This document shows positions 3,711 to 60,600 of a stretch of DNA of 64,000 nt, piece by piece. The first letter of the stretch is position 1. Every line of letters begins with the position of its first letter. This DNA comes from Comamonadaceae bacterium OS-1. GTDB lineage: Bacteria > Pseudomonadota > Gammaproteobacteria > Burkholderiales > Burkholderiaceae_C. A model generated the notes under the pieces. The model did no database searches. It was not told where the DNA came from and saw only the letters and a list, made by a program, of their open reading frames with translations. Location of the stretch: positions 2,046,001 through 2,110,000 of the forward strand of contig AP026969.1 in NCBI GenBank assembly GCA_027923965.1, given 5' to 3'. Both the position numbers and the translations under genes were made by a program.

Positions 3711-3764
3711 GGCAGTTAGTGCTTATGTATTAAGCGTGAGCAGCTATCTTTTTTGTAGTTTTCA
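3711..3764 (+). repeat. Dispersed palindromic repeat, copy 1 (overlaps ada 3' end)
   Basis: Contains GCTTATGTATTAAGC, an imperfect form of the core GCTTAT-NNN-ATAAGC, followed by GTGAGCAGCTAT and a T-run. It fills the ogt/ada junction and covers the last codons and TAA stop (3730-3732) of the ada gene, so the C-terminal residues KKIAAHA are encoded by repeat sequence. Confidence 0.75.
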
Positions 3765-5271
3765 ATTTAACGGGCAGTTCGGCCCAGGCGCGCAGCACAG
3801 CGTAGCTGCGCCAGGGCCTCCAGGCCTGGGATGCCGCCTCGGCGGCCAGGCTGGCCAGGCGCACGTTCGGGGCATCCTGCACGCCCAGGGCTTTGTGCAG
3901 GGCCACGTCGCCTGCCGGAAACGCATCCGGCCAGCGCAGGGCGCGCATGGCGATGTACTGGGCGGTCCAGTCGCCGATGCCGGGCAGGGCTTTGAGTGCT
4001 GTGATGGTGCTGTGCACCGGGGCACCGCCGTGCAGGGCGAGCTGGCCGCCGTCCACCGCGCGGGCCAGTGCCAGGATGGCGTTTTGCCGCTGCTTCACTA
4101 TGCCCAACTGGCCCAGCGCGCCGCCGGTCAGTTGCGCCAGCACGGCGGCACGGGGGAACAGCCGGGTCAGCTCGGGAAAAGGCGTGTCGATGGGGTCACC
4201 AAACGCATCCACCAGCCGCTGCGCCAGGGTGCGGGCCGCGGCCACGGTGATTTGCTGGCCCAGCACGGCGCGCACCGCCAGCTCAAAGCCGTCCAGCGTG
4301 CCGGGCACGCGCAGGCCTGCGCTGTCAGGGAAGCGGTGCTGCAGCACGTGGTGGATGGACTGGGGATCGGCATCCAGGTCCAGCCAGGCACGCACGCGGC
4401 GGATCAGCAGCGGCAGCACGCCCTGCAGGCTGTCGCTGACCCGCAGTAGCACATGGTGGCGCGCGGGCACGAACTCGGCCTGCAGCCAGCCGGTGTGGGT
4501 GGTGCTTCCGACTTTGATGGAAAAAGTGCGGCTTGCGCTCATTCCATCGGCGTGGGTGGCTATTAATTCAATAGCATTGACCTGGCGCTGGGCCAGAAAG
4601 CGCCCCATGGCGGCCACATCGAAAGGCGGGCGGTAGCCGAGCCGGATGGCCAGGCCCTGTGCGCGTTCACTGGTGGAACCGCTGCGCCGCAGTTGCGAGG
4701 GGTTCAGGCCGTAGCGCTCCACAAACACGGTGTTGAAGCGGCGTACGCTGGCAAAGCCGCTGGCCAGCGCGATCTGCGCCACCGGCAACTGGGTGTCGGC
4801 CAGCAGCTGCTTGGCGGTGAGCAGGCGGCGGGTTTGCAGGTACTGCAGTGGCGAGACGCTGAAGTGGGTCTCAAAAATGCGCCGCAGGTGCCGGTCGCTG
4901 ACCCCCAGGCGGGCCGCCAGCGCGGGCAGGGCGCTGCCATCCTCCATGCTCCAGGCTTCGGGCTCGTCGAGCATGCGGGCGGCCTGGTGGGCCAGGATGC
5001 TGGTGGCATCCTGCATGGACCAGGCCAGCGCGTGTGGTGCCAGCTCGGGGCGGCAGCGCAGGCAGGGCCGGAAACCCGCGCTCTCGGCCTGCGCCGGGTG
5101 GGCAAAGAAGCGGCAGTTCTCGCGCTTGGGGGTTTTGACGGCGCAGACCGGGCGGCAGTAGATGCCGGTGGAGGTCACGCCGGTGAAAAACCTGCCGTCA
5201 AACCGGGCATCGCGGGTCTGCAGGGCCAGGTAGCAGGCGCTGTCATCGGTGCTGATTTCGGTCGGGGTCAT
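3730..5271 (-). CDS. ada: Ada-AlkA fusion: alkylation-sensing regulator / 3-methyladenine DNA glycosylase II
   Basis: Predicted 513 residues, with three modules. Residues 1-80 form the Ada zinc domain: Cys39, Cys43, Cys70 and Cys73 match the E. coli set whose first cysteine accepts methyl from phosphotriesters. An AraC-type helix-turn-helix follows (about 105-190, QIALASGFASVRRFNTVF). The C-terminal half is AlkA: an N-terminal fold, then the helix-hairpin-helix LPGIGDWTAQYIAMRAL and catalytic Asp in PAGDVALHKAL. It lacks the AdaB methyltransferase domain, which neighbouring ogt supplies. I took the ATG at 5271, where Ada homology begins; a 39-codon upstream extension has no family similarity. 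A repeat copy lies in frame at about residues 232-250, and another supplies the stop codon. Confidence 0.92.
   Translation of the reverse strand: MTPTEISTDDSACYLALQTRDARFDGRFFTGVTSTGIYCRPVCAVKTPKRENCRFFAHPAQAESAGFRPCLRCRPELAPHALAWSMQDATSILAHQAARMLDEPEAWSMEDGSALPALAARLGVSDRHLRRIFETHFSVSPLQYLQTRRLLTAKQLLADTQLPVAQIALASGFASVRRFNTVFVERYGLNPSQLRRSGSTSERAQGLAIRLGYRPPFDVAAMGRFLAQRQVNAIELIATHADGMSASRTFSIKVGSTTHTGWLQAEFVPARHHVLLRVSDSLQGVLPLLIRRVRAWLDLDADPQSIHHVLQHRFPDSAGLRVPGTLDGFELAVRAVLGQQITVAAARTLAQRLVDAFGDPIDTPFPELTRLFPRAAVLAQLTGGALGQLGIVKQRQNAILALARAVDGGQLALHGGAPVHSTITALKALPGIGDWTAQYIAMRALRWPDAFPAGDVALHKALGVQDAPNVRLASLAAEAASQAWRPWRSYAVLRAWAELPVKLKTTKKIAAHA
4521..4577 (+). repeat. Dispersed palindromic repeat, diverged in-frame copy in ada
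   Basis: The top strand reads GCGCTCATTCCATCGGCG then GTGGCTATTAATTCAATAGC, a diverged copy of the element. Read on the minus strand it encodes NAIELIATHADGMSASRTF in the AlkA N-terminal region, where E. coli AlkA appears about ten residues shorter. The reading frame is kept. Confidence 0.5.
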
Positions 5272-5381
5272 GCCTGGATGGTACGCGAGGCCCGCAGGGA
5301 GAGTAGCCGTTTTCGGACCTGTGGACACACTGCGAACCTGGCCGTTTTTCAGGCTGCAGTGTTCTCGGGGAAAATCGAGGC

Positions 5382-6263
5382 ATGTCACATCAAATCATGG
5401 AAGTCACGGGGTCTGATTGGGAGGGCCGCCAGCCGGTGCAAGTCTTGACCGACACCCTGGAGAGCGGCGGCGTGCTGTATTTTCCGGCGCTGGCGTTTAC
5501 GCTGCTACCCGATGAACTGCCGCTGCTGCGGCCCGACGTGCGGGCCCCCAAATCGCGCAACATCAGCCAGCCCGCGCACGGTGTGGTCAAGGGGGCCGTG
5601 GGCTCCACCGGGGAAATGGCCACCCTGAGCGCCATGATGCAGCGCTTTCGCCGCCAGGCGGTGCAGCTGGTGCACGGCCTGTTTCCCCGCTACAGCGCCC
5701 ATTTGCGGCTGGAGCCCACCAGCTATCGCCCTACCGAGGTGGCCACGCGCACCCAGTCGTGGCGGGCCGACGACAAGCGCCTGCACGTGGACGCGTTCCC
5801 GTCGCGGCCCAACCGGGGCGAGCGGATTTTGCGGGTGTTCAGCAACATCAACCCGCAGCAGCAGCCCCGGGTGTGGCGCGTGGGCGAGCCGTTCGAGGCC
5901 ATGGCCCAGCAGTTTTTGCCCCTGATTCCGGGCTACCGTCCTTGGGAGGTACAGCTGTTGCGCGGCCTGGGCATCACCAAATCGCTGCGCAGCGAGTACG
6001 ACCACATGATGTTGCAACTGCACGACCACTTGAAGCGCGACATGAATTACCAGAAGAACGCGCCGCAAACGGTGGCCGAGTTTGCGGCGGGCAGCACCTG
6101 GATATGTTTCTCTGACCAGACCCTGCACGCCGTGCTGGGCGGCCAGTACATGATGGAACAGACATTCTTTATGCCGCCCCAGCACCAGTACCGGCCTGAC
6201 CAAAGCCCGTTGGGCATTTTGACCCGTTTGGCCGGGCACCCCTTGCAGGGCGCACCCCTTTAA
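5382..6263 (+). CDS. kdoO: Kdo 3-hydroxylase (Fe(II)/2-oxoglutarate dioxygenase)
   Basis: Predicted to hydroxylate the Kdo sugar of the lipopolysaccharide inner core at C-3. The 293-residue protein carries the dioxygenase facial triad as LHVDAFPSRP (His135, Asp137) and a distal His249 in FSDQTLHAVLGG; GERILRVFSNINP follows the HxD loop. Overall length and motif order fit the Burkholderiales KdoO family. It diverges from ada, and its stop overlaps the glgX stop by 4 bp. GAAAAT lies exactly 6 nt before the ATG, so the mRNA may be leaderless; a second ATG at 5397 is an alternative start. WaaA, which adds Kdo, is encoded 14 kb away. Confidence 0.85.
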   Translation: MSHQIMEVTGSDWEGRQPVQVLTDTLESGGVLYFPALAFTLLPDELPLLRPDVRAPKSRNISQPAHGVVKGAVGSTGEMATLSAMMQRFRRQAVQLVHGLFPRYSAHLRLEPTSYRPTEVATRTQSWRADDKRLHVDAFPSRPNRGERILRVFSNINPQQQPRVWRVGEPFEAMAQQFLPLIPGYRPWEVQLLRGLGITKSLRSEYDHMMLQLHDHLKRDMNYQKNAPQTVAEFAAGSTWICFSDQTLHAVLGGQYMMEQTFFMPPQHQYRPDQSPLGILTRLAGHPLQGAPL

Positions 6264-8419
6264 ATCGACAGGCCTGCGCCCTTGGCGGCCAGCAGCACCA
6301 GGCTGTTGGCGGGCAGCGGAAAGATGTCTTTGCCCTTGCCAACCCAGCCACCCAGACCAAGCGGATGGGTGCTGTCCAGTACCACCTGCCACTGGCCGGC
6401 AGGCAGCAGAAAGGGGTCGATGGTGTTGCCTGCGTTGACCAGTAGCAACAGCGGGGCCTTGGCCTTGCCGGGTTTGCCGATCAGGCAACCCAGTGCCCGG
6501 TAGTGCGGGTCGCGCCAGGCATCGCCTTCCAGGGGCACGCCGCTGCCGCGCAGCCAGGACAAATCCGGCAAGCCTTGCACGTCGGCCACGCCGCTGTACC
6601 AGTGGTTGGCAAAGGGCAGAGCCTGGCGGCGCAGGGCGATGACGCGGCGGGTGAAGGCAATGAGGCTTTCATCTGCGGCGGCCCAGTCGATCCAGGTGGT
6701 CGGGTTGTCCTGGCAATAAGGGTTGTTGTTGCCGCCCTGGGTATGGCCTAATTCGTCGCCTGCGCAGATCAGTGGTGTGCCTTGCGCTAGCAAAGTGGTA
6801 GCAAGCAGGGCGCGTTGCAGATTGCCGCGCAAGATGGTGACGCCCGGGTTGTCGCTGGGGCCTTCGGCACCGCAATTGAAGTTGAGGTTGTGGCCGTGGC
6901 CGTCGCGGTTGTCTTCCAGGTTGGCCAGGTTGTGGCGCTCGTTGTAGCTGAGCAGGTCGCGCAGGGTGAAGCCGTCGTGCGACACCACGTAGTTCACCGA
7001 CTCGGCCGGGGCGCGCTGGCGTGGCTGGTACATGTCGCTGGAGCCGCACAGGCGCTGGGCCATGTCGGCGCGGGTGTTTTCGGCCATGGGCGCACCTGCG
7101 GCGGCGGCGGTCTGGATCCAGAAACCGCGCATGCTGTCGCGGAAGTGGTCGTTCCATTCCAGCCAGCCGCGGGGGAAACCGCCGGTCTGGTAGCCGCCGG
7201 GGCCGATGTCCCAGGGCTCGGCCACCATCTTCACGCGCGAGAGCACCGGGTCTTGGGCCACGGCGGTGAAAAAGGCACTCTTGCGGTCAAAACCCGTGTC
7301 GGTGCGGCCCAGCACCGGGGCCAGATCGAATCGAAAGCCGTCCACGTGCATTTCGCCCACCCAGTAACGCAGACTGTCCAGCACCATTTGCAGCACGCGC
7401 GGCTCGCGCACGTCGACGGTGTTGCCGCAGCCGGAGTAGTTTTCGTAGAAAGCCGGGGCTTCGGGTGGCAGGCGGTAGTAGCTGGCGTTGTCCAGGCCGC
7501 GGAAACTGATGGTTGGGCCACCATCACCGGCTTCGGCCGTGTGGTTGTAGACCACGTCCAGCAGCACTTCCAGCTCGGCGGCGTGCAGGGTTTTGACCAT
7601 GGCGCGGAACTCGTCGCGGGGCGAGACACCGTCCACACCACTGGCCAGCCGCGGGTCTACGGCAAAAAATCCCAGCGTGTTGTAGCCCCAGTAGTTGCTC
7701 AGGCCCATGCCGCTCAGGCGTTCTTCGCTGAGCGAATACTGCACCGGCAACAGGCTGATGGCGGTGATGCCGAGCTGCTTCAGGTGGTTCACCGAGGCGG
7801 GGTGGGCCAAACCGGCAAAGGTGCCGCGCAGGGCGGGAGGGATGTTTTCGTTCAGCTTGGAGAAGCCTTTGACGTGGCATTCGTAGAACACCGAATCCGC
7901 CAGCGGCACGCGCGGGGCCTTGTCACCGGCCCAGTCGAACTGGTCGAAGGTGACGCGGGCTTTGAGCGCCAGGTCGGCGTTGTCACGGGTGTCCATGTGG
8001 CGCGGGTGCAGCCGGTCGCCCGCAAAATGCTCGTCGCGCCATTCAAACTGGCCCACGATGTCGCGGGCGTAGGGGTCGAGCAGTAGCTTGGATGCATCAA
8101 AACGGTGCCCCCGGTCGGGCCGCCAGGGACCGTGGGCCCGCAAACCGTACACCAGACCGGGCTGGGCCCCCGGCAGGTAGCCGTGCCACACGTCGCTGGT
8201 ATGGGCGGGCAGGCGGAACCGGGCGATCTCGTGCTGGCCGCTGGGGTCAAAGATGCACAGGTCCATGGCCTGGGCGTGGGCAGAAAACACCGCGAAATTG
8301 ATGCCGGTGCCGTCAAAGCTGGCACCCAGCGGCCAGGGCTGACCGTCTTGCATTTCGGGCAGGGCAGGGCGACCGGGAGGGGCCGCGAGAGGGGCAGAGG
8401 CAGTTATCAGGCTTTCCAT
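6260..8419 (-). CDS. glgX: Glycogen debranching enzyme (isoamylase type)
   Basis: Hydrolyses alpha-1,6 branches of phosphorylase-trimmed glycogen. The 719-residue protein has an N-terminal CBM48 region (about 25-130) and a GH13 barrel: [27 protein letters not shown] with the nucleophile Asp, [18 protein letters not shown] with the acid Glu, and [15 protein letters not shown]. This set is diagnostic for GlgX/TreX. The start overlaps the glgB stop by 13 bp, so glgB and glgX are co-transcribed and probably translationally coupled; the stop overlaps convergent kdoO. Confidence 0.95.
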
Positions 8420-10581
8420 TCAAGCATCACTGTGGCCAGGGGTGGCAGGTTGAGCACTACGGAATACGGTTTACCGTGCATGGACACGGCCTCAGCAGAA
8501 GCCGTGCCAAGTGGCGTGCCGACGTTGCTGCCGCCGTAGTGCGCCGAGTCGGTATTGAGCTTTTCGTAGTATGTACCAGCCTGCGGTACACCGAGCCGGT
8601 ATCCATTCCAGACGTTGGGGGTGAAGTTGCATACCACCACGATGAAGCTGCTGTCGTCCACGCCGCGGCGGATGAAGCTGATCACTGAGCGCTCGGTATC
8701 GTTGTGCTCGATCCACTCGAAACCAGCGGGTTCAAAGTCTTGCTGGTACAGCGCCGGGGTATTGCGGTAGAGCTGGTTCAGGTCGCGCACCAGCAGTTGC
8801 ATGCCGGCGTGGGGGGCTTGGTCCAGCAGATGCCAGTCCAGGCTTTGCTCGAAGTTCCATTCGCGGTCCTGGGCAAATTCGCAGCCCATGAACAGCAGTT
8901 TCTTGCCGGGGTGGCCAAACATATAGCCCATGAAGGCGCGCAGATTGGCAAATTGCTGCCAGCGGTCGCCGGGCATCTTGTTCAGCAGCGAGCCCTTGCC
9001 GTGCACCACTTCGTCGTGCGAGATCGGCAGCACGAAGTTTTCGGTAAACGCATATACCAAGCTGAAGCTGATTTCGCCCTGGTGGTGCTTACGGTAGATA
9101 GGATCGCGCTCCATGTAAGCCAGGGTGTCGTGCATCCAGCCCATGTTCCATTTGTAGTGGAAGCCCAGGCCCCCGGCATAGGTGGGGCGGGATACCGACG
9201 GGAAGGCGGTGGACTCTTCTGCCAGGGTGATGGACTGGGGCCGCTCGGTGCCCACTACCTCGTTCATGCGCTTCAAAAAGGCGATGGTTTCCAGGTTTTC
9301 GCGGCCACCGTGCACGTTGGGAATCCATTCCCCGGCCTTGCGGCTGTAGTCGCGGTAGAGCATGGAAGCCACCGCATCCACGCGCAGGCCGTCCACGCCA
9401 AAGCGCTCCAGCCAGTACAGGCCGTTGCCCAGCAGGAAGTTGCTGACTTCGGTGCGGCCCAGGTTGTAGATCAGGGTGTTCCAGTCGTTGTGGAAGCCTT
9501 CGCGCGGGTCGGCGTATTCGTACAGGTGCGTGCCATCAAAGTTGCCCAGGCCGTGCGCGTCGGTGGGGAAGTGGGCGGGCACCCAGTCCAGGATCATGCC
9601 CACACCTTCGGCGTGGCAACGCGCCACGAAGCGGGCAAAACCGGCGGCATCGCCAAACCGGGCGGTTGGCGCGTACATGCCCACCGGCTGGTAACCCCAG
9701 GAGCCGTCAAATGGGTGCTCGCTGATGGGCAGCAGCTCAATATGGGTAAAGCCCATGTCGCGGGCGTAGAGCAGCAGGGTGTCGCCGAGTTCGTCCCAGT
9801 CCAGCCACTGGTTGCCCTCCTTGCGCCGCCAGGAGCCCAGATGCACCTCGTAGATGCTGATGGGCGCATTCAGTGCATTGGCCTGTTTGCGGGTGGTGGA
9901 TGGCGGCACAAACGGAGGCATGTTGGCGACCACACTGGCCGTGGCCGGGCGCAATTCGGCTTGCAGGGCGTAGGGGTCGGAGCGGGCGGGCAGCACCTCG
10001 CCGCCCTGGGTACGGATCTCGTACTTGTATTTGGCCCCGACCTGCACGCCGGGCAGAAACAGTTCCCACACACCGCATTCACGGCGCAGGCGCATGGGGT
10101 GGCAGCGCCCATCCCAGAAGTTGAAGTCGCCCACCACGCTGACGCGGCTGGCATTGGGGGCCCACACGGCGAAGCGGGTGCCCGCCACGCCTTCCATCAC
10201 GGTAGGTTGTGCGCCCAGCACCTCGTAGGGCCGCAGATGCGTGCCTTCGCCCAGCAACCACACATCCATTTCGCCCAGCACGGTGGGGAAGCGGTAGGGG
10301 TCGTCGATGGTGGCGCTGTGGCCATCCGCCCATTGCACCTGCAGGCGGTAGGCTGCGCCGGGGGCCAGCGTGACTTCGCCTTCAAAGAAACCGGCTTCGT
10401 CCTGCACGGCCAACGGCCCCAGCACCATGCCCTTGGCCGACTCCACCACCACGCTATTTGCCCCGGGAAGGAAACAGCGTATCGACGTGGGGCCCGTGGC
10501 CAGCGCGTGCGGGCCAAGTACCGCAAATGGGTCTCCGTGGCGTGCGCCACAAATCATTTCAACATCATGGGCGTGCAGCAT
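8407..10581 (-). CDS. glgB: 1,4-alpha-glucan branching enzyme
   Basis: Introduces alpha-1,6 branches into glycogen. The 724-residue protein has an N-terminal CBM48-like domain pair, then the GH13 barrel with [44 protein letters not shown] (nucleophile Asp), [14 protein letters not shown] (acid Glu) and [16 protein letters not shown]. These are classical GlgB signatures and the length is typical. It lies 80 bp downstream of glgP and overlaps glgX, giving a glgP-glgB-glgX order on the minus strand. The ATG at 10581 opens with [20 protein letters not shown], a normal GlgB N-terminus. Confidence 0.96.
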
Positions 10582-10661
10582 AAGAACCGATCTAGAGTGG
10601 GTTTACATGGAGGGAATCGCGCTATTGCGGTGTTGTCTGTCACCGCAGTTTGGGCCATTTT

Positions 10662-13103: not shown

Positions 13104-13170
13104 AGGGGCATCCTTTATGTGGGTTGGCACAAGCCGGAATCCGATGTTCGGATGGCTTTTTTTCTAGTCT

Positions 13171-13186
13171 AAGCGCTTTGAATGCG
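13171..13186. promoter_or_regulatory. Operator-like site in the glgP-glgC divergent promoter region
   Basis: AAGCGCTTTGAATGCG is identical to 16 bases of the site upstream of treS, in the same orientation relative to the gene it precedes. It abuts a possible glgP -10 (TAGACT on the minus strand). The rest of this 280-bp divergent region holds a direct repeat of GGTAAC around CGGCC (about 13219-13235) but no gene. Confidence 0.45.
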
Positions 13187-18662: not shown

Positions 18663-19699
18663 ATGTTCTGATCGTCAAACTCTCTTCCCTGGGAGATGTG
18701 GTGCACGCCATGCCGGCGGCGCAAGACATCTTGCATGCGTTTCCGGGCGCACTGGTGGACTGGGTGGTGGAACCCGACTTTGCCCCCCTGGTGCGCCGCT
18801 GCGCTGGCTTGCACCGGGTGATCGAATGCGACCTGAAGCGCTGGCGCGAGACGGTGTTCACCGCCGACACCCGCAACGCCTGGCGGGCTTTTTCCTCCGA
18901 CCTGCAGTACGAGTGCTACGACGCGGTGCTGGACCTGCAGGGCATGAGCAAGTCGTCTCTGGTGGCCAAGATGGCCCGCCTGGGCTCGGACGGTCTGCGC
19001 TATACCCTGGCCAACCAGACCGAAGGCACGGTTTTTCAGGCCCCCACCCGCTGGATTGCCGATGTGGCGGTACCGGTGGAGTCGCATCTCCACGCCGTCG
19101 ACCAGGCGCGGGTCATGTGTGCCCGTTCGCTGGTCTATGCCCTGCCAGACAAAGTATCTTTTGGGCTGCTGGCGCACGCCGATAAAGCACGACGTGCTAC
19201 TAAAAGTATAGTAAATCAATTTTTTGACGTGGGCCATGTAGAAGCCACGCCCCTCGTGGCCTTTCTGCATGGCAGCAATCGCGCCGACAAAAGCTGGCCC
19301 GAAGCCCACTGGCTGGAGATGGGCCACCGCCTGAACGACCTGGGTTACACCGTAGCCTTTGCCCATGGCAACGACGACGAGCAGTGGCGCAGCGAAAGCA
19401 TTGCCAACCGGCTGAACCAGGCCGTTGTCTGGCCGCGCATGGCCCTGGGCGCGCTGACCGATGCGCTGGGCGAATGTTTGGGGGTGATCGGTGTCGACAA
19501 CGGCACCAGCCAGATCGCCACCGCGCTGGATTTGCCGCTGGTGAAGATCTACAACTTCGACACCGTCTGGCGCACCGGCCCGCAGAACCGCGACCACCAA
19601 CTCAGTGTGTTTGCCGACCCCACGCCGAGCGTCAACGCGGTGTGGAACGCCTGGATGCAAGCCTCCGCCCTGGCAGCACTGCGGGATTCTGCGCATTGA
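18659..19699 (+). CDS. GT9 heptosyltransferase, WaaC-like paralogue
   Basis: A second glycosyltransferase-9 protein (346 residues) next to waaC. It begins MNVLIVKLSSLGDVVHAMPA and keeps FLHGSNRADKSWPEAHW, both close to WaaC, but the donor-site motif reads VIGVDNGTSQIATALDLP instead of the usual DSGLSHL form. It could add heptose I, heptose II or another core sugar; which of the two genes is the true WaaC is unclear. The ATG at 18659 overlaps the waaC stop by 4 bp. A palindromic repeat lies in frame at about residues 167-187, giving roughly 13 residues more than E. coli WaaC in that stretch. Confidence 0.85.
   Translation: MNVLIVKLSSLGDVVHAMPAAQDILHAFPGALVDWVVEPDFAPLVRRCAGLHRVIECDLKRWRETVFTADTRNAWRAFSSDLQYECYDAVLDLQGMSKSSLVAKMARLGSDGLRYTLANQTEGTVFQAPTRWIADVAVPVESHLHAVDQARVMCARSLVYALPDKVSFGLLAHADKARRATKSIVNQFFDVGHVEATPLVAFLHGSNRADKSWPEAHWLEMGHRLNDLGYTVAFAHGNDDEQWRSESIANRLNQAVVWPRMALGALTDALGECLGVIGVDNGTSQIATALDLPLVKIYNFDTVWRTGPQNRDHQLSVFADPTPSVNAVWNAWMQASALAALRDSAH
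19157..19220 (+). repeat. Dispersed palindromic repeat, in-frame copy in the heptosyltransferase
   Basis: TATCTTTTGGGCTGCTGGCG, then GATAAAGCACGACGTGCTAC and TAAAAGTATAGTAAATC keep the element's order of T-run plus GGC, inverted core, GTGCTAC and ATAG tail, though the core has diverged. It encodes FGLLAHADKARRATKSIVNQ and keeps the frame. Confidence 0.5.
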
Positions 19700-20985
19700 T
19701 TCTGCGTCTGTATTCCCTGATGACGTGGCTGGCGATTCCCTTGCTGCGCCGCAAGCTGCGCCGGCGCGCGCTGGCCGAACCCGGCTACGGCGTGGCGGTA
19801 CCCGAGCGCTTTGGCCACTACAGCCAGCCACCCGGCCAGGGTTTTGTGTGGGTGCACGCCGTGTCGCTGGGCGAAACCCGGGCCGCGGCCATTTTGCTGG
19901 CCGCCTTGCGCCGCGAGATGCCGGGCATGCGCCTGCTGCTGACGCACGGCACCGCCACCGGCCGGGCCGAGGGCCAGGCGCTGCTGCAGCCGGGCGACGT
20001 GCAGGTCTGGCAGCCCTGGGACAGTGCGGGCGCGGTGCGGCGCTTTGTGCGGCACTTCCAGCCCCGCATCGGCATCCTGATGGAAACCGAAATCTGGCCC
20101 AATTTACTGGCGGCCTGCCAGGCTGCGGGTGTGCCGGTGGTGTTGGCCAACGCCCGACTTAGCGCCAAATCGCTGCGCCAGGCACAGCGGTTGTCGGCTC
20201 TGTCCCGACCCGCCTACGGTGCGCTGACCGCCGTGTGGGCGCAAACTGCTGCCGATGCCCAGCGCCTGGTCGACGCGGGCGCTCCGCCCCCGGTGGTGCT
20301 GGGCAATCTGAAGTTCGATGCCACGCCCAACCCCGAGCAACTGGCCGCGGGGCGGGCCTGGCGCAGGGCAGGGCGGCCGGTGGTGTTGCTGGCCAGCGCC
20401 CGCGAAGGCGAAGAACTCCTTTTGCTCCAGTATTTACAGTCTTTTAGGCCTCTAGCGCATATTCCATCAGCGCAAGTAGCTCCTAAATTGGGAGTGGCCG
20501 ACGTGCAGTGGCTGATCGTGCCGCGCCACCCGCAGCGCTTTGATGCGGTGGCGGCGTTGGTGGTGGAGCAAGGATTCAGTCTGTCGCGGCGCAGCCGTTG
20601 GCCCGATGGTCCTGAGCCCGCCGAAGTATGGCTGGGCGATTCGCTGGGCGAGATGGCGCGGTACTACGGCCTGGCCGATGTGGCTTTGCTGGGCGGCAGC
20701 TTCGCCGCTTTAGGCGGGCAGAACCTGATCGAGGCCGCCGCCTGCGGCTGCCCGGTGCTGATGGGCCCCTCGACCTTCAACTTTGCCGAGGCCGCCGAGT
20801 TGGCCGAGGCTGCCGGGGCGGCCTGCCGCGTGGCCGACATGCCCGCCGCCGTGGCCCAGGCCCTGGCCTGGCTCAACGCCCCCGACACCCTGGCCCGGGC
20901 CGCAGCCGCCGGGCCGCAATTCGCCAGCGCCCACCAGGGAGCCGCGCGGAAAACGGCTCTGGCAGTCAAAGAATTTTTAGAGTGA
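19696..20985 (+). CDS. waaA: Kdo transferase (3-deoxy-D-manno-octulosonic acid transferase)
   Basis: GT30 inner-membrane enzyme that attaches Kdo to the lipid A precursor. About 429 residues. After an N-terminal membrane anchor (LRLYSLMTWLAIPLLRRKL) come VWVHAVSLGETRAA, ILMETEIWPNLL, ASAREGEE, LIVPRHPQRF, LGDSLGEMARYYGLADVALL and GGQNLIEAAACGCPVLMGP, all WaaA signatures. I chose the TTG at 19696, overlapping the previous stop, because the family N-terminus starts there; an ATG at 19720 is the alternative. Between ASAREGEE and LIVPRHP there are about 13 more residues than in E. coli, exactly where a repeat copy lies. Confidence 0.92.
   Translation: MILRLYSLMTWLAIPLLRRKLRRRALAEPGYGVAVPERFGHYSQPPGQGFVWVHAVSLGETRAAAILLAALRREMPGMRLLLTHGTATGRAEGQALLQPGDVQVWQPWDSAGAVRRFVRHFQPRIGILMETEIWPNLLAACQAAGVPVVLANARLSAKSLRQAQRLSALSRPAYGALTAVWAQTAADAQRLVDAGAPPPVVLGNLKFDATPNPEQLAAGRAWRRAGRPVVLLASAREGEELLLLQYLQSFRPLAHIPSAQVAPKLGVADVQWLIVPRHPQRFDAVAALVVEQGFSLSRRSRWPDGPEPAEVWLGDSLGEMARYYGLADVALLGGSFAALGGQNLIEAAACGCPVLMGPSTFNFAEAAELAEAAGAACRVADMPAAVAQALAWLNAPDTLARAAAAGPQFASAHQGAARKTALAVKEFLE
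20435..20490 (+). repeat. Dispersed palindromic repeat, in-frame copy in waaA
   Basis: TCTTTTAGGCCTCTAGCGCA, then TATTCCATCAGCGCAAGTAG and CTCCTAAATTGGGAG form a clear copy of the element. It is translated as SFRPLAHIPSAQVAPKLG, inserted between the ASAREGEE and LIVPRHP motifs of WaaA without breaking the frame. Confidence 0.75.
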
Positions 20986-21045
20986 AAAGTGCCTTCTGTG
21001 CTTATCTGATAAGCATGAAAAGCTCACTTATTGATAGCACTCAGG
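20985..21045 (+). repeat. Dispersed palindromic repeat between waaA and trhO
   Basis: AAAAGTGCCTTCTGTGCTTA, then TCTGATAAGCATGAAAAGCT and a TTATTGATAGCAC tail. It begins at the waaA stop and extends over the last codons (SAINK) and the TGA of convergent trhO at 21024-21026. It may also serve as the bidirectional transcript end, as no other hairpin is seen here. Confidence 0.8.
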
Positions 21046-27483: not shown

Positions 27484-27540
27484 CAAAAAAAAATAGCTGC
27501 CTGTGCTTATGCAGAGAGCATGACGGGCACTTTTTCTATG
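27484..27540 (-). repeat. Dispersed palindromic repeat, intergenic, reverse orientation
   Basis: AAAATAGCTGCCTGTGCTTA followed by TGCAGAGAGCATGACGGGCA and CTTTTTCTAT. The core inverted repeat is partly degraded, but the order AATAGCTG, GTGCTTAT, AGCATGA, GGCAC, TTTTT is that of the element read on the minus strand. Confidence 0.65.
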
Positions 27541-35925: not shown

Positions 35926-35981
35926 TAAGCTTTTTAGGCCGCCTGCGCTTATTCCATAAGCGTGAGCAGCTATTAAATCAG
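35926..35981 (+). repeat. Dispersed palindromic repeat, near-consensus intergenic copy
   Basis: AAGCTTTTTAGGCCGCCTGC, then GCTTATTCCATAAGC and GTGAGCAGCTATTAAATCA. The core inverted repeat is perfect here, so this copy is the best reference for the element. It follows the helicase stop codon directly. Confidence 0.85.
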
Positions 35982-36003
35982 GAGTAAGTCAATCTCCTTA
36001 CCA

Positions 36004-36033
36004 GGCGCATGGCATTCGGCATGCGCCTTTTTT
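36004..36033 (+). terminator. Intrinsic terminator after the helicase gene
   Basis: GGCGCATG (36004-36011) pairs with CATGCGCC (36020-36027) around an 8-nt loop, followed by six T. It lies 56 bp before the gloA start and would separate the two genes. Confidence 0.8.
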
Positions 36034-39988: not shown

Positions 39989-40368
39989 GGTCTTTTGGTA
40001 ACAAAATTACAACCTGAATAGTACTCCCGAACCGCACGCCTGGGCAGCTTAGGAGTTACCAGTAGGGTACGAAAGAGAACTACAAAATGAATAGCTGCTC
40101 ACGCTTATGAGATAAGCACAAGAGCCCATTTTTATAGATAAGGCCGCCAGCACCTACCTACGGCTTGAAACCGAACGCTGGCAGTCCAGAAGTACAGCAG
40201 AGCGGTTGCACCTACACCCAGCAGTCCACAGTCTCCCAGCCATCAGGCGCTTACCAGTTGCCAGTGGAGTACGGCCGTGTTGTTTGCTGCACCAGGTCGG
40301 CGGGCTATGGGCCGCTGGATCAATGGCCGCGCCACCAGTCGGGCTTTGTTCGGCGGCACAATCGAAGC
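39989..40368. other. Divergent noncoding region, edd / pdxH
   Basis: No gene is supported here. It contains one reverse-orientation palindromic repeat copy (40081-40140) roughly in the middle and ends with CACAAT exactly 6 nt before the pdxH ATG. The left 90 bp should hold the edd promoter, but I see no clear hexamers. The open frame upstream of pdxH has no recognisable similarity. Confidence 0.6.
40081..40140 (-). repeat. Dispersed palindromic repeat, reverse orientation, edd-pdxH gap
   Basis: AATAGCTGCTCACGCTTATG, then AGATAAGCACAAGAGCCCAT and TTTTATAGAT. The core GCTTAT-GAG-ATAAGC is a perfect inverted repeat. Both flanking genes point away from it, so it is not acting as a terminator here. 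Confidence 0.85.
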
Positions 40369-41019
40369 ATGAGCCTATCCAACACCGCACTTGCCGACCT
40401 GCGCAAAAGTTACGAACGCGCCGAACTCAACGAAGAAGCCTCGCACAGCGATCCGCTGCAGCAATTTGGCCAATGGCTGAACGAGGCGATCTCTGCCCAG
40501 GTGCCCGAACCCAACGCCATGACCCTGGCTACCGTGGGCCACGATCTGCGCCCGTCCACCCGCATCGTGCTGGTCAAAGGCTATGACGCGCGCGGCATCG
40601 TCTGGTACACCAACTATGACAGCCGCAAAGGCCAGGAGCTGGCGGGCAACCCGTTTGCGGCCCTGCAGTTCCACTGGGTGGAGCTGGAACGCGTGGTGCG
40701 CATCGAGGGCCGTGTCACCAAGGTCAGTGACGAAGAAAGCGATGCCTACTTCCACAGCCGCCCGCTGGATTCGCGCATAGGGGCCTGGGCCTCGCCGCAG
40801 TCGCAGGTGATCTCCGGCCGGGGCGTCCTGGTGGCTAACGCAGCCAAGTTTGGTGCCAAGTTCCTGCTCAACCCGCCGCGCCCGCCCCACTGGGGCGGCT
40901 ACCGGCTGGAGCCCGACAATTGGCAATTCTGGCAAGGCCGCAAAAGCCGCCTGCACGACCGGCTTCGCTATACCTTAGATAGCAGCTTATGCTGGCTGCG
41001 TGAGCGCCTGGCCCCTTAA
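40369..41019 (+). CDS. pdxH: Pyridoxine/pyridoxamine 5'-phosphate oxidase
   Basis: FMN enzyme that makes pyridoxal 5'-phosphate, the cofactor that GlgP also needs. The 216-residue protein has [75 protein letters not shown] and [20 protein letters not shown], then RLHDR and the terminal RLAP. The ATG at 40369 fits the family N-terminus; CACAAT precedes it by 6 nt, so the message may be leaderless. Aat starts 19 bp after the stop. Confidence 0.96.
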
Positions 41020-48407: not shown

Positions 48408-48413
48408 GAGGCC

Positions 48414-50420: not shown

Positions 50421-50442
50421 TCGTTTAATTGGAGTTTTATAC

Positions 50443-51374: not shown

Positions 51375-51375
51375 A

Positions 51376-53466: not shown

Positions 53467-53565
53467 CAGGTGGGTACAGGCAAACGGGCGCGAAGGGTAA
53501 CAGCCAGTGTGCGTTGTTTTGATGTCAAATTGGTGACAGCCACGTGACGGTATGCAGACAGCAAA

Positions 53566-53600
53566 AAGGGGCCTAAAAATATATAATTTTTAGGCCCCTT
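53566..53600. terminator. Strong hairpin fused to a palindromic repeat copy
   Basis: Perfect 15-bp inverted repeat (53566-53580 with 53586-53600) around ATATA. On the minus strand the stem is followed by TTTTTGC, so it can terminate the PilZ-protein gene. The right arm runs directly into the repeat copy at 53588-53642, whose TTTTTAGGCC head it shares. Confidence 0.8.
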
Positions 53601-53642
53601 GTGCTTATCCAGTGAGCGTAAGCAGCTATTTATTCAATAGCA
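53588..53642 (+). repeat. Dispersed palindromic repeat between ppk1 and the PilZ gene
   Basis: TTTTTAGGCCCCTTGTGCTT, then ATCCAGTGAGCGTAAGCAGC and TATTTATTCAATAGCAC. It lies downstream of the PilZ gene and upstream of ppk1. Confidence 0.8.
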
Positions 53643-53649
53643 CAACATG

Positions 53650-54336
53650 TCAGGTGCGGTGGATCAGCAAGGTTTCGTAGACAAAGTTTTGCAGGATCAC
53701 CTGGTCGGCCGCGTCGATGTCGTGGAAGTTGATGCCGTGCGAGTACACCGTGTGGAAGGTGGCACCGTCGGCAGTGCTGCCCGCCGACTGCTGCACGCTG
53801 CGGATCGAAGCAGTGGTGTTGATGGTGACATCCCGGTCCGAAGTCTGGTCCCGCAGGGAGAATTCGATGTCGATCAGGTCGCCCGATGTGCCCAGAGGCC
53901 GGGCGGTGGACACCAGCGCACCACTCAAGCTGATGTCTGACAGCGTAGCCATCTTGAAATTCTTGGGATCGATACTGCTTTTGATCTTGACCGGCAGGTT
54001 GGCCTTGACCCGCACCGCCTTGCGCAAACCCACTTTCTGGATCGCACCCGGAAACGACAGCAGCAGGAAAGCACGGGGCGCTGTGACCACCGACTCGATC
54101 TTGCTGCTGAAGGTGAATACCGACACGCCGGAGAACACCCGAATGATGACGCTTTCGCCCTCGGCCATGGCGGTGCTTTCCTGCGGGATCTTCAGCAGCA
54201 GGTAATCGCCGGGCACAAATCCGATCAGGGTGGTGTAGTGCACGGTGGGGTTGGCCGACTGGCTGGACATGATCTGCAGGCGTACACCCACCTGCAGGTT
54301 CATATCTTCAAACTCGATACTGGATTTTTTGGTCAT
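53650..54336 (-). CDS. PilZ-domain protein, YcgR-like (cyclic-di-GMP receptor)
   Basis: 228 residues in two beta-rich halves. Residues about 10-100 resemble the YcgR N-terminal domain (GVRLQIMSSQ, GFVPGDYLLLKIP). The PilZ domain (about 103-220) has the binding motifs RKAVR (105-109) and DISLSG (134-139), both complete. YcgR-type proteins act as flagellar brakes; no flagellar gene is nearby, so motility control is inferred from the family. It lies next to the cyclase-FHA gene on the same strand, with a 99-bp gap. Confidence 0.88.
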   Translation of the reverse strand: MTKKSSIEFEDMNLQVGVRLQIMSSQSANPTVHYTTLIGFVPGDYLLLKIPQESTAMAEGESVIIRVFSGVSVFTFSSKIESVVTAPRAFLLLSFPGAIQKVGLRKAVRVKANLPVKIKSSIDPKNFKMATLSDISLSGALVSTARPLGTSGDLIDIEFSLRDQTSDRDVTINTTASIRSVQQSAGSTADGATFHTVYSHGINFHDIDAADQVILQNFVYETLLIHRT

Positions 54337-54435
54337 GGCAATGGAGATGCGGGTTTATTTGTTGGTTGCTCGAAACAAACTTGGTTTCTAGCGCTGTATG
54401 CAAATTTTAGCCCCCGTGGCCCACCCTGGGGCAAG

Positions 54436-55377
54436 CTAGGCCGCGGCGCCGTAAAACGAAGGGGCCTGCAGAGAAAAACTGAAGTGCACCGTCGGGGCGC
54501 TGATGTCGTTGAACGGCATGCCCAGCGCGATTTCCCCGGTGCCGTGCAGTTGGCAGTCGTCACGGCGTAGGGGTACGTCGGTGTCGCTGCCGGTGAACCG
54601 CACCCAGGTACCAAAGCTGCTCAGGTCGGTGATGAAAAACGCGCCATTGCGCCAGTCGATGCGGGCATGCAAGCGCGATACACGGGGGTCGTTGATGAAA
54701 AACTCGGCCTGGTCGGTACGCCCCAGGTGCACGGGCATCTGCTTCGACGAGAAGCTGCGGTTGACGTCCAGGTAGGCCAGGTGGATCTGCCCTCCGTTTG
54801 GCACAGCCGGTCGTTCGATGTCGGCCAGGCTGGCCTGCATGGTGACAAATTCGGTGCGGGCATCTTCCTGCCACTCGATTTTGTACAGCGGCACCGCCTC
54901 CTGGCGGCCCCGCAAGTTCACCGGCCCCAGACTCAGAACGCGCAGGCCCAGGGTGTCGTCCAGTTGGGCCACCACCGTTTCGGTCGCCCAGATCTGGTTG
55001 CCACCGGACAAATCGCTCAGGCGCGAGGCCACATTCACCGCGTCACCAAAGCAGTCGCCGTCGACCTCCACCACCTCGCCGCGGGCTATGCCGGCCTTGA
55101 TTTCCATGCGAATGGCATCCGGCCACTTTTGCAGACGCTGCTGGTGGCCGCGCTGGATGGCGATCACCGCGTTGGCGGCATTGCCGGCGTCGGCGAACAC
55201 CGCCAGCACGCCATCGCCCAGCTTTTTCACCACGCGGCCCTGGTGGGCCTCGCAGACCTCGCCGATCCATTGGGTGATGCGGGTCACCGCCCGCGTGGCT
55301 TTTTCATTGCCCAAGGCCACGTAGAAGGCAGTGCTCCCGGTGAGATCGGCAAATACAACGGTGGCCAGTTCGCCCAT
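54436..55377 (-). CDS. Class III nucleotidyl cyclase with C-terminal FHA domain
   Basis: Predicted adenylate or guanylate cyclase of 313 residues. The catalytic domain (about 1-170) has both metal aspartates, Asp11 in VVFADLTGSTAFYVAL and Asp55 in KKLGDGVLAVF, plus DCFGDAVNVASRLSDLSGG. An FHA domain (about 205-295) follows with HLGRTDQAEF, SRLHARIDWR and TDLSSFGTWV, which would bind phosphothreonine peptides and may link the cyclase to a Ser/Thr kinase. There is no membrane helix. Substrate preference was not determined. Confidence 0.88.
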   Translation of the reverse strand: MGELATVVFADLTGSTAFYVALGNEKATRAVTRITQWIGEVCEAHQGRVVKKLGDGVLAVFADAGNAANAVIAIQRGHQQRLQKWPDAIRMEIKAGIARGEVVEVDGDCFGDAVNVASRLSDLSGGNQIWATETVVAQLDDTLGLRVLSLGPVNLRGRQEAVPLYKIEWQEDARTEFVTMQASLADIERPAVPNGGQIHLAYLDVNRSFSSKQMPVHLGRTDQAEFFINDPRVSRLHARIDWRNGAFFITDLSSFGTWVRFTGSDTDVPLRRDDCQLHGTGEIALGMPFNDISAPTVHFSFSLQAPSFYGAAA

Positions 55378-55701
55378 GCTGGAGACTTTGTGAATGGTCA
55401 GAAAAGTGATGAACGCAGTTTAGTACAGCAGATAAACGGCTATCGGATTGCGTACGCTTCGTGAAACAAATTATGAAAAGGAAACGCGCAGTTACTGCAA
55501 CCATCCAACGGCAGGAACTGGCGGCGGTCCCCAAATGGTTCGCTGGCCGCGCATTCAGCCCCACGTCTTACACCCAGTTACCAAAACGGCGCATTTGCAC
55601 GGCTTTGGGCATTAGCCTGTGCTACTGTAGTGTGTAATTTGTCACAAATTTCTTATTTAATACATTTTTCTTCATCGACCGGCACCTCCCTGCACCTTCT
55701 T
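55378..55701. other. Divergent noncoding region with a palindrome
   Basis: Between the cyclase gene and a small plus-strand gene. It contains a perfect 15-bp palindrome, AATTTGT-C-ACAAATT (55636-55650), in an AT-rich patch about 50 nt upstream of the small gene's ATG, positioned as an operator. TACTGT at 55623-55628 could be a -10. No gene is supported here. Confidence 0.5.
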
Positions 55702-56043
55702 ATGGCTTGGGACTCTACCTCCATCAAAAACAGCCTCTACAGCATCCTGGGTATGGATTCCGCTCGGGCGGATGCCGGACGTGCACAGCAACTGGAGCAG
55801 GTGCGTGCGGCCATGCTGGAATGTCTGGGCGATGTAGGAGGCTTTGACGGCCCGATCCTGCGGCAGCGGGTGGCGTACGCCAAAGACGTGCAAACCCTGT
55901 GGTTTCTGCGGGCGGACCTGATGGGCGTGCTGGCCAGCCGCGACGGCGAAGGTACCGCCCGGGCCCAGATGGACCAAATTGCTCCGCTGTTCCAGGGCCT
56001 GCTGCCCAAGGGCTTGGTCTCGCGCTCCAGCAGATTGCGTTGA
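55702..56043 (+). CDS. Hypothetical protein, 113 residues
   Basis: I do not recognise the family. The protein is soluble and mostly helical, with an amphipathic stretch around QQLEQVRAAMLECLGDV and KDVQTLWFLRADLMGVLASR, then a basic C-terminus (LVSRSSRLR). The ATG at 55702 is preferred; an in-frame upstream extension covers the promoter palindrome. No strong Shine-Dalgarno is visible. It converges on ldcA with a 3-bp gap. Codon use matches the neighbours. Confidence 0.6.
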   Translation: MAWDSTSIKNSLYSILGMDSARADAGRAQQLEQVRAAMLECLGDVGGFDGPILRQRVAYAKDVQTLWFLRADLMGVLASRDGEGTARAQMDQIAPLFQGLLPKGLVSRSSRLR

Positions 56044-56046
56044 CTT

Positions 56047-58190
<2,144 letters not shown>

Positions 58191-58193
<3 letters not shown>

Positions 58194-58397
58194 AGGTTTT
58201 TCTTCGGGAACATCGCGGGGCGTTTGCAGTGCGGCATCCAGCGCTTGTTTGACTTTTTGCTGCACCTGCTGGGCTGATGCAGGGCCTTGCGGCGTGGCCA
58301 CGGTGGGCGCAACTTGCTGCACTATTTGCTTCTTGGCCAGCAGGCTGATGAGCATCACCACGACGAGCAAACCCACCACACTGAAGACGGCGCGCAT
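58191..58397 (-). CDS. Small single-span membrane protein
   Basis: 68 residues from the ATG at 58397, chosen for AGGA 6 nt upstream. One N-terminal membrane helix (AVFSVVGLLVVVMLISLLAK) is followed by a Gln/Ala-rich segment (ASAQQVQQKVKQALDAAL) and an acidic/proline end. It resembles small inner-membrane proteins with a periplasmic or cytoplasmic helical tail; I do not recognise the family. The stop codon is supplied by a repeat copy. It is 66 bp upstream of tadA and may be co-transcribed with it. Confidence 0.6.
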
Positions 58398-58570
58398 CAC
58401 ATTTCCTGGTGCCAAACAAGCCTGGATTTTACGGTCTGCCCGGCCCATTTCGGGCTGTCGCTAGGGATGGCTACAGACCAATGGGGGGCATCGGCCAGGG
58501 CCTGCGCACAAAACGCGTCGTCCTCGACCAAGGCAACCTGGATGGTGGAAGGCAGCGCGGTGTCGGCCAT
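58397..58570 (-). pseudogene. Possible remnant of a response-regulator receiver domain
   Basis: A 57-codon frame begins MADTALPSTIQVALVEDDAF, which resembles the first strand and acidic pocket of a receiver domain (VALVEDD), then CAQALADAPHW like helix 1. After that similarity stops and the frame ends in a TGA overlapping the ATG of the small membrane gene. No phospho-acceptor Asp or output domain follows. It may be a decayed gene start or a short real peptide; the match is brief and could be chance. Confidence 0.3.
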
Positions 58571-58721
58571 GGTGGCCCATTGTCTGCGCGCATGCCGCAG
58601 TCTGTGGGCGTGTCACTACAAATAGCGACAAGCTTTCAGACCATGGGAGCAAGGCACTTTGTCACACATTGAAAGAAGCTTATCTGGGCTTACATCCATG
58701 GCTGGCAGAGAATGGTGCCTC

Positions 58722-59279
58722 ATGAAGACACCAATCTGCCGCTGCACCTGGGCCGACAGCAGTCCGCTGATGGCCACCTACCACGACGAAGAATGGGGCG
58801 TGCCCGAGCGCGACAGCCGCAAACTGTGGGAGAAGCTGGTGCTCGACAGCTTCCAGGCCGGGCTGTCCTGGGCCATCATCCTGCGCAAGCGCGAGGGCTT
58901 TCGCGCCGCCTTTGCCCAGTTCGACCCCGAGGCGGTGGCCCGCTTCACCCCCGCCGATGTAGACCGGCTGATGCAAGACCCCGACATCGTGCGCTCTCGC
59001 GCCAAGATCGAGGCCACCATCGGCAACGCCCAGGCCTACCTGGCCATGCAGGCCGAGGGCGTGGACTTTTCCACCTGGCTGTGGGGCATGGTGGGCAGCG
59101 CGCCCATCAAGGGCAACGGCGCGGTGCTGACCCAGTCGCCGCTCTCAGCCGACATCTCCAAGGCCCTCAAAAAACGTGGCTTCAAGTTTGTCGGCGCGGT
59201 AACCATCTACGCCTGGATGCAGGCCGTGGGCATGGTGGACGACCACAGCGAACGCTGCTTCCGCTACCAGCCGGGTTGA
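58722..59279 (+). CDS. tag: DNA-3-methyladenine glycosylase I
   Basis: Excises 3-methyladenine from DNA. The 185-residue protein starts MKTPICRCTWADSSPLMATY with the zinc-binding Cys, and has YHDEEWGVPERDSRKLWEKL, LDSFQAGLSWAIILRKREGF, the KRGFKFVGAVTIYAWMQAVG segment and the terminal DDHSERCFR with His and Cys ligands. Third alkylation-repair gene in the window after ogt and ada-alkA, but unlinked to them. The DUF72 gene follows after 3 bp. Confidence 0.95.
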   Translation: MKTPICRCTWADSSPLMATYHDEEWGVPERDSRKLWEKLVLDSFQAGLSWAIILRKREGFRAAFAQFDPEAVARFTPADVDRLMQDPDIVRSRAKIEATIGNAQAYLAMQAEGVDFSTWLWGMVGSAPIKGNGAVLTQSPLSADISKALKKRGFKFVGAVTIYAWMQAVGMVDDHSERCFRYQPG

Positions 59280-59282
59280 TGC

Positions 59283-60344
59283 ATGGCCCACCAACCCCCG
59301 CTCTTTGCCGAGTCGGCTTCATCCACCGCGCCCGTCCGTCCGCAGCCGCCCGACCCGGCCTGGGCCGCGCTGGCCGAGACCCTGCCACGCCACCTGCGGA
59401 TAGGCACCTCTTCATGGACCTATCCCGGCTGGGCCGGCTTGCTGTGGGATGGCGACTACCCTGATGCAACGCTGTCCAAACACGGCCTGGCTGCCTACGC
59501 CCAGCACCCGCTCTTTCGCACCTTGAGCGTGGACCGCAACTTCTACCGCGCCCTCAGCGCCAGCCAGTACGCGGCCTATGCAGCCCAGGTACCCGACGAC
59601 TTTCGCTTCGTGGTGAAAGCGCCAAGCCTGGTCACCGACGCCCTGGTGCGCGCCGACAACGGCCGTGGCCAACAGACCAACGCCGCTTTCCTGGATGCCG
59701 AGCTGGCCGTGCAGGATTTCGTGTTGCCTGCGCTGCAAGGCCTGGGCCACAAGGTCGGTGCGCTGGTGTTCCAGCTCAGCCCGCTGCCACCGCAGTGGTT
59801 GGGCCGGATGCCGGACGTGCTGGCGCGGCTAGGCCGGATGCCGGACGTGCTGGCGCGGCTAGGCCGGATGCTGGCCGCCCTGCCCACTCTAAAGCCCACC
59901 GCACCGGACGGCGTGGTTGCCGTGGAAGTGCGCGACCCGGCCTTCCTCACGCCCGATTTCGTCTCCGTGCTGCGCAGCGCCGGTGCCACCTATTGCCTCG
60001 GCCTGCACCCCAAGCTGCCGCCCATTGGCGAACAACTCGGCATGCTGCGCGCCCTCTGGCCCGGCCCACTGGTCTGCCGCTGGAACCTGAACCGCCTGCA
60101 TGGAGCCTACGGCTACGAAGATGCACGTGACCTGTACGCCCCGTTCAATGCCATCGTCGACCCCGACCCAGACACCCGGTTCGCCCTGGCCAAAGCCGTG
60201 GCGGGCACCATTGGCCGGGGACAGAACGCTTTCGTCACCATCAGCAACAAGGCCGAAGGCTCGGCACCGCTCACCGTGTGGGCACTGGCGCAAGATGTGC
60301 TGGCTGCGATGTCGCTACGGATGGGGACGGACCGGACCCCGTAA
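59283..60344 (+). CDS. DUF72 (YecE-like) family protein
   Basis: 353 residues with the DUF72 TIM-barrel marks IGTSSWTYPGWAGLLW, LSVDRNFYRALSASQYAAYA, FRFVVKAPSLVTDALVR and CRWNLNRLHGAYGYEDARDL. The family's biochemical role is not established. It lies 3 bp after tag, so co-transcription is likely. A perfect 30-bp tandem duplication encodes LGRMPDVLAR twice at about residues 173-192, lengthening one helix or loop. Confidence 0.88.
   Translation: MAHQPPLFAESASSTAPVRPQPPDPAWAALAETLPRHLRIGTSSWTYPGWAGLLWDGDYPDATLSKHGLAAYAQHPLFRTLSVDRNFYRALSASQYAAYAAQVPDDFRFVVKAPSLVTDALVRADNGRGQQTNAAFLDAELAVQDFVLPALQGLGHKVGALVFQLSPLPPQWLGRMPDVLARLGRMPDVLARLGRMLAALPTLKPTAPDGVVAVEVRDPAFLTPDFVSVLRSAGATYCLGLHPKLPPIGEQLGMLRALWPGPLVCRWNLNRLHGAYGYEDARDLYAPFNAIVDPDPDTRFALAKAVAGTIGRGQNAFVTISNKAEGSAPLTVWALAQDVLAAMSLRMGTDRTP
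59802..59870 (+). repeat. 30-bp tandem duplication inside the DUF72 gene
   Basis: Two identical 30-bp units (59802-59831 and 59832-59861) plus 9 bp of a third. Each encodes GRMPDVLARL. Perfect identity points to recent replication slippage; the frame is preserved. Confidence 0.92.
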
Positions 60345-60540
60345 ATCACCAGAAAGGGCCGGAGCCCAGCGTGCATAGCGCCGCGCTGCATCCGCCGGAG
60401 CCACACCGCCATCACCCCGGGCTTTGAAGCCCTGATGCCGCAGCACGTCAACAAATCCTCGCCCCTGCTGCCCCTGCTTCCCCTGCTTCCGCAGCTGGAA
60501 CCCCGACTGCAGCCGATGGCCGTAGCTTGAGGTTTATGTA

Positions 60541-60600
60541 TCAAATCGGCTTTTTGTGCTTATTCCATGAGCGTAAGAAGCTATATTTTATATAGCACTA
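60541..60600 (+). repeat. Dispersed palindromic repeat after the LysR gene
   Basis: TCAAATCGGCTTTTTGTGCT, then TATTCCATGAGCGTAAGAAG and CTATATTTTATATAGCAC. The last bases supply the TAG stop (60598-60600) of the LysR gene. The remaining 60345-60540 stretch holds only a short hairpin, GGGCTT-TG-AAGCCC (60419-60432), and no gene. Confidence 0.8.

Follow-up and report, generated by a model that had tools for sequence, protein, structure and literature searches.

A dispersed palindromic motif of Comamonadaceae with mostly fixed sites, DNA-level conservation and species-specific cores: a candidate uptake-signal-like system

A 64-kb stretch of the single-contig 5.12 Mb genome of Comamonadaceae bacterium OS-1 (positions 2,046,001 to 2,110,000; the window, meaning this whole stretch) carries about a dozen copies of a palindromic motif, some of them in frame within conserved genes, and raises the question of whether such a family consists of inserts that move or of a DNA signal that is maintained in place. 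The evidence below favors maintenance in place, and an uptake-signal-like system is the explanation that we tentatively prefer. An earlier note on the window, made from the sequence alone, had listed about twelve copies in both orientations, and a profile hidden Markov model matches all 12 of them (22 to 51 bits) and adds a weak 13th (20.8 bits) at 40965-41007, at a gene 3' end. The four copies placed within genes by the note are indeed there (at 4520, 19157, 20444, and 56518), with the others between genes or overlapping gene 3' ends; the in-gene copies are open in frame, and the family also occurs in related genera.

The search of the genome that the note had proposed finds 174 profile copies in 824 kb, or one per 4.7 kb, and in a control on four sequence sets the reversed sequence of each gives no hits; extrapolated from the 824-kb sample, the whole genome probably holds about 1,000 to 1,100 copies. 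The profile has 66 positions and was trained on copies from this genome and iterated on the same genome, so that its hits are not independent. Model R1 was built from 36 of 42 high-scoring copies, six being omitted by choice. Simple pattern counts agree that the copy number is far above chance, as it is for the uptake signal sequences (USS) and DNA uptake sequences (DUS) of other bacteria: at a tolerance of 1 mismatch, the 5.12 Mb genome has 355 occurrences of the core GCTTAT-NNN-ATAAGC and a single one of the backward pattern, and at a tolerance of 2 mismatches the window has nine, whereas 100 shuffles average 0.46. The alignable unit in a four-species consensus is about 59 bp, organized as an AT-rich left end with GGCCTCT, the inverted core, AGCAGCTAT, an AT-rich stretch, and ATAGC; the arms of the inverted core vary between species. 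The spacing of copies has a coefficient of variation of 0.81 in 384 kb of this genome (3.4% of random placements are as even) and 0.99 in a congener, which gives no firm result on even spacing. The window has no Rfam match at gathering score. The note knew of no described equivalent, and we found none among the titles and abstracts listed by searches of the open-licence literature, a scope that excludes most subscription journals; no Comamonadaceae genus name occurs within PMC3733652 or PMC6006769.

Orthologous sites bear most directly on movement. Genomes carry G codes here, G000 being that of OS-1 itself. G152 is a congener with about 90% nucleotide identity, largely collinear with the 384 kb around and including the window; G037 and G147 belong to the same genus and G008 to another, and G153 is a further genome compared. 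The best named match to the window WaaA protein is from Rhodoferax ferrireducens (61%; very near records may be absent). Copies without a locatable orthologous position are counted neither way. From G000 to G152, 82 of the 161 copies with full flanks are located, and 75 of these 82 have an orthologous stretch of 60 to 80 bp; in the reverse direction 82 of 104 copies are located, 76 with such a stretch, and from G037 to G000, 32 of 97, of which 31 have a 60- to 80-bp stretch (one being plainly unrelated sequence). When the partner is instead recognized by detection, it is found for 58 of 63 located G000 copies in G152 and for 62 of 64 located G152 copies in G000. One copy is missing in each direction between G000 and G152, the missing stretch coinciding with the element in neither case, and the other exceptions are length changes or larger differences. 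There are no clean empty sites among the located sites of either pair (G000/G152 or G037/G000). Recent transposition is not seen within the genus; between congeners, the majority of the sites that could be located keep their position. The segments missing from G152 contain four copies in 23.3 kb, near the average density. Two side observations may be added. At two orthologous loci, one in G000 and one in G037, a different sequence that includes CCCCTGCAAGGGGG and GCCTGGGGGTG takes the place of the motif in the other genome and may represent a second repeat of gene 3' ends; and G000 at about 1969900-1974800 aligns with G152 in numerous offset registers and is thus internally repetitive.

The bases within these fixed sites are not equally free to change. 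Nine columns of the G000 profile have 1.8 bits or more (the strong columns), and ortholog partners were identified through flanking sequence, independently of the motif. In the G000/G152 comparison, strong-column mismatches number 6 of 538 in intergenic copies and 1 of 135 in genic ones, compared with 159 of 660 and 35 of 165 for the core and 545 of 2,900 and 107 of 735 for the remaining columns. At third codon positions of in-gene copies no strong-column position differs (0 of 40), compared with 82 of 282 in the rest of the element. Since conservation is seen both in and between genes, it is the DNA sequence itself that is constrained, whatever its context. Protein function does not account for this, and an inert relic is contradicted by it; the motif DNA is actively maintained, inside genes too.

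The core comes in species dialects. G037 has 99 copies in 475 kb by its own profile, the same density as G000, whereas the G000 profile finds only 47 in that genome; the G037 core is near TAGCGCATAT-nnn-ACCTGCGCTAG, compared with GYGCTTAT-nnn-ATAAGC in G000, and both cores emerge model-free among overrepresented 10-mers. G153 scores higher with the G037 profile, and G008 has a third core, near TAGCGCTTGTCCAGCAAGCGCT. As a comparison of cores and not of trees, the dialects follow lineage (G000 with G152, G037 with G153, and G008 apart), as expected of uptake signals; species dialects are described for DUS (PMC3630211, Frye 2013). In 21 ungapped orthologous pairs of G037 and G000 the mismatch is 49.6% in the core, 16.5% in the other tested columns of the element, and 11.1% in the flanks, and the core differences are alike from site to site: at column -5, A at 16 sites of G037 corresponds to T at 12 of those 16 in G000, and at column +5, T at 20 sites corresponds to A in nine and G in seven. 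The core thus differs in parallel at the same sites of two congeners. Within the genus, G147 is motif-poor (seven copies in 200 kb); it has its own overrepresented 10-mers around CTGAGCTTGTCGAAG, perhaps another repeat family.

Rickettsia palindromic elements are insertions in which a palindrome is read through in frame inside genes, and the earlier note likened the in-gene copies to them. We found no whole-unit insertion at the in-gene copies tested, and the filled orthologous sites described above also speak against that comparison. In TruB, 11 of 30 family loci have a detected motif: the surrounding interval measures 36 amino acids in all 11 motif loci and in 17 of the 19 motif-free ones, so that motif presence changes no length within the family, and it measures 32 amino acids in 24 of 29 loci from other families of the order. 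A gain of 4 amino acids in TruB precedes the motif. A gap test of this kind has been used to argue that USSs are not insertions (PMC1626085, Redfield 2006). Net length changes against solved homologues, judged by eye, are about 0 in GcvP and PriA, +2 in DppD, +4 in TruB, +7 in ThiL, and +8 in Tmk, and three of the four genes with a gain of 4 amino acids or less hold weaker copies (26 to 28 bits); the CCA-adding enzyme has no PDB match at 1e-20. A full-unit gain (18 to 23 amino acids) is found in none of these six or in peptidase S66, together 7 of 22 in-gene copies. Shorter loop insertions are possible, and partial gains could be remnants. In S66, relative to the window protein, 19 of 26 motif-free loci fall short by 3 to 15 amino acids and the four motif loci measure 0 to +2; in WaaA, 14 motif loci measure 50 to 59 amino acids, and the 65 others fall into 39 at 34 to 44 and 26 at 50 to 83. 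WaaA and the heptosyltransferase are too length-variable for insertion to be judged. The longer WaaA and S66 proteins and the variable heptosyltransferase weaken an initial view in which every in-gene copy originated in place.

These longer loops, the open frames, the presence of both orientations, and the one copy missing each way between G000 and G152 are what could be expected of a still mobile miniature inverted-repeat transposable element or Rickettsia-type insert, or of an inert relic of one. Such an origin is nevertheless very improbable, given missing stretches that do not match the element, strong columns conserved far above their surroundings, and the unchanged TruB length within the family. 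Plasmids and phages gave no blastn match, a weak absence since one copy of one dialect was searched at an E value of 0.01. In IMG/VR one viral contig has one exact match to the G000-dialect pattern.

Placement relative to genes (positions from a home-made gene caller) is far from uniform. Among 152 copies in 704 kb, 120 are intergenic, 23 lie fully in genes, 4 lie partly in genes, and 5 are at the ends of the stretches. Among spacers of 55 to 199 bp in G000, copies are present in 31 of the 41 convergent, 34 of the 135 tandem, and 1 of the 47 divergent ones; in tandem spacers the core lies at a median of 39 bp past the upstream stop. Such a distribution would suit an RNA hairpin at mRNA 3' ends, acting as a terminator or stabilizer. 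Folding of eight of the 13 window copies gave z scores of -0.73 to -3.90, and arm pairing exceeds column shuffles slightly (0.527 of variable pairs paired versus 0.508 in G000), the observed level being reached in 8, 14, and 4 of 300 shuffles in G000, G152, and G037, respectively. An RNA hairpin under structural selection is hard to reconcile with a paired fraction so near that of the shuffles, the small excess notwithstanding, and copies are present in 15 of the 35 divergent spacers that are at least 200 bp long. The constraint is similar inside genes, where copies occur in both orientations (two of the six frames account for 19 of the 23). None of the nine cores in 20001-60000 is terminator-like (a stem plus a T run), and the copy at 35932 has a separate terminator-like site just downstream (36003-36028) and so need not be a terminator itself. 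Overall, an RNA role as the explanation of the family is quite improbable.

It is on the fixed sites, the conserved key bases, and the cores differing by species that we base the proposal of an uptake-signal-like system of the Comamonadaceae, that is, a self-maintaining recognition motif; we regard it as possible, somewhat short of probable. A putative factor would read the motif as DNA and favor better copies in every context; its preference would drift between lineages, and the sites would follow by point changes in place. Biased DNA uptake and recombination, which has been proposed to underlie USS and DUS, would maintain the motif. In behavior, uptake signals are the closest known systems, being likewise high in copy number, present in and between genes, and divided into dialects, with AT-rich flanks and, at least in TruB, what may be in-place substitution in coding sequence; USS and DUS are also frequent between convergent genes. 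The motif is unlike them in its 59-bp length, its inverted core, its mostly intergenic location, and its different bacterial family.

Several observations weigh against this proposal. A 59-bp motif with an inverted core is unlike the short cores of USS and DUS; in-gene copies are few (23 of 152 fully within genes), and the proximity of copies to stop codons suggests a 3'-end role. The evidence for a parallel difference of the core comes from 21 pairs, and across dialects the strong columns are less fixed: in 31 pairs of G037 and G000, 44 of 273 strong-column positions differ, along with 187 of 341 in the core and 380 of 1,487 in the rest. Some insertion at the origin is possible, the proteins being longer where copies sit in variable loops (WaaA and S66). 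Of the competence genes, the search covered that for ComEC, which is found in all 30 motif-rich genomes of the set described below, and in 117 of all 120, so that its presence is uninformative; in G003, which is motif-rich and single-contig, the ComEC match lies in three adjoining pieces (1836740-1837544), either a broken gene or a sequencing error. A further point is the association with a Y1 transposase, which favors the REP alternative taken up below.

The motif was scored in 120 genomes of the GTDB family with a four-species sequence model, up to 46 candidates per genome; the model matches 51 of the 120, and 30 are motif-rich (24 or more), counts that serve only to rank genomes as rich or poor. 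A Y1 transposase is present in 29 of the 30 motif-rich genomes and in 60 of the 90 others (P = 0.0006), and among the 21 loci in which the gene was recognized (25 were read; five of the 21 are congeners), 10 have a model match directly at its stop codon, against about 24% estimated for any gene 3' end (P = 0.016); the genomes share kinship, and these association P values are therefore optimistic. Each of six genus genomes at least 95% complete has one match to PF01797, and two at 71 to 73% completeness have none; motif-poor G147 has a weak match only (23.5 bits). Downstream of the transposase stop, the 21 recognized loci have a GTCCC stretch, in most cases with AATCTGACCC after it.

This association raises an alternative in which the family resembles repetitive extragenic palindromes (REPs) and is tied to a domesticated, single-copy Y1 REP-associated tyrosine transposase (RAYT) that would nick the single-stranded hairpin, with old seeding and with repair from other copies homogenizing the family and allowing its cores to shift together. 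How RAYTs maintain REP populations is an open question, and we know of no described activity of a RAYT in in-place conversion. The motif shares with REPs its palindrome, its position 3' of genes, and its high copy number, and near-identical 27-nucleotide cores (94 pairs with at least 24 matches in G000, versus a shuffle mean of 8.8) fit conversion, although an equal excess could arise if copies merely vary in quality. It is unlike them in being longer, in its DNA constraint within genes, and in its mostly fixed positions, with no clean empty sites between species. Many REPs have a GTAG tag (PMC2817692), which is present in neither the G000 profile nor the four-species consensus; the G037 dialect has GTAG inside TAGTAGCTAT, 3' of the core. 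The Y1 transposase unit has its own GGGGTCAGA-type ends (several loci also have GGGGTCAGA upstream), motif-rich G085 has no transposase hit, and the gene is present in 60 of the 90 genomes that are not motif-rich. We consider the RAYT alternative doubtful, with a real chance of being right. As for the suggestion in the earlier note of a mobile element moved by a transposase elsewhere, a Y1 transposase is linked to the motif both statistically and by position, but no movement is seen.

Two other comparisons remain. Binding sites of an abundant chromosomal protein, such as a nucleoid or domain organizer, each site being selected individually, would account for a dyad core that is largely specified at the sequence level (given the near-shuffle arm pairing), for constraint that is similar in and between genes, and for mostly fixed positions. 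Individual selection at about 1,000 sites, the middle of truB included, is a heavy demand, and the strong preference for gene 3' ends is not predicted; on this comparison, such a role is improbable. The beta-proteobacterial repeat element BRE is likewise a repeat present in Comamonadaceae and sometimes inside genes. As described in the part of PMC3110155 compared here, it is about 75 to 91 bp long with 69% GC in Bordetella, often tandem, and present in at most 29 copies, and by length, GC content, and arrangement it is a different element, the comparison being one of descriptions only.

The window copies illustrate this range of contexts. On the forward strand, a copy at 3701..3758 (40.1 bits) overlaps the 3' end of the Ada/AlkA gene and has orthologous stretches in G152 and G037, and a second (4520..4577, forward strand, 41.1 bits) lies within the Ada/AlkA gene, which is on the reverse strand and was identified by Pfam, as were the heptosyltransferase and S66 genes; the same site is present in G152, and in G037 with another core. 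At the 4520 copy, G000 and G152 differ in the core loop, one having TCC and the other GGA, a pattern that an inversion of the loop would give. The heptosyltransferase gene contains a weak copy (19157..19215, forward, 22.1 bits) at a place where 29 aligned homologues are length-variable, and the WaaA/KdtA gene contains a stronger one (20444..20495, forward, 38.9 bits) with a model match near this position in 14 of 80 WaaA loci. The copy within the S66 gene, itself on the reverse strand, is at 56518..56579 (forward, 47.5 bits).

The remaining copies lie at or beyond gene ends. Convergent spacers contain the copy at 20980..21041 (forward, 35.7 bits), which overlaps both gene ends, and that at 60538..60599 (forward, 50.6 bits), at the 3' end of a LysR-type gene, for which an orthologous stretch was located in neither G152 nor G037. 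The copy with the highest score (35932..35987, forward, 51.4 bits) is just past the stop of a DEAD-box helicase gene, and that at 53590..53643 (forward, 48.0 bits) is just past the stop of a reverse-strand gene; a terminator-like hairpin of 15 pairs at 53566-53600 is formed by upstream sequence pairing with the left arm of the latter copy, and the pairing sequence is present in G152 and G037 too. Reverse-strand copies are found in a spacer between two forward-strand genes (27487..27537, 28.6 bits), in intergenic DNA at 40079..40135 (47.5 bits; same site in G152) and 58132..58185 (39.2 bits), and at the 3' end of the PNPOx gene, where the weak 13th copy (40965..41007, 20.8 bits) has similar sequence in G152, G037, and G153.

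To our knowledge, genome-wide uptake signals are known from only two bacterial families. Whether the Comamonadaceae may hold a third, independent system of this type, or else a domesticated Y1 transposase that would drive nick-and-repair conversion in place, is a claim that we put at about an even call of being right in one form or the other. If the uptake-signal proposal is true, molecular drive would spread and maintain a long dyad motif at about 1,000 sites, most of them fixed and some within conserved genes, and the dialects of the motif would act as a genetic barrier; if the Y1 variant is true, RAYTs would have a new role. A motif family with both transposase and competence gene candidates lets the uptake and RAYT ideas be tested against each other. 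Protein function is also not the only influence on stretches of some proteins in this family; a DNA-level signal shapes them too.

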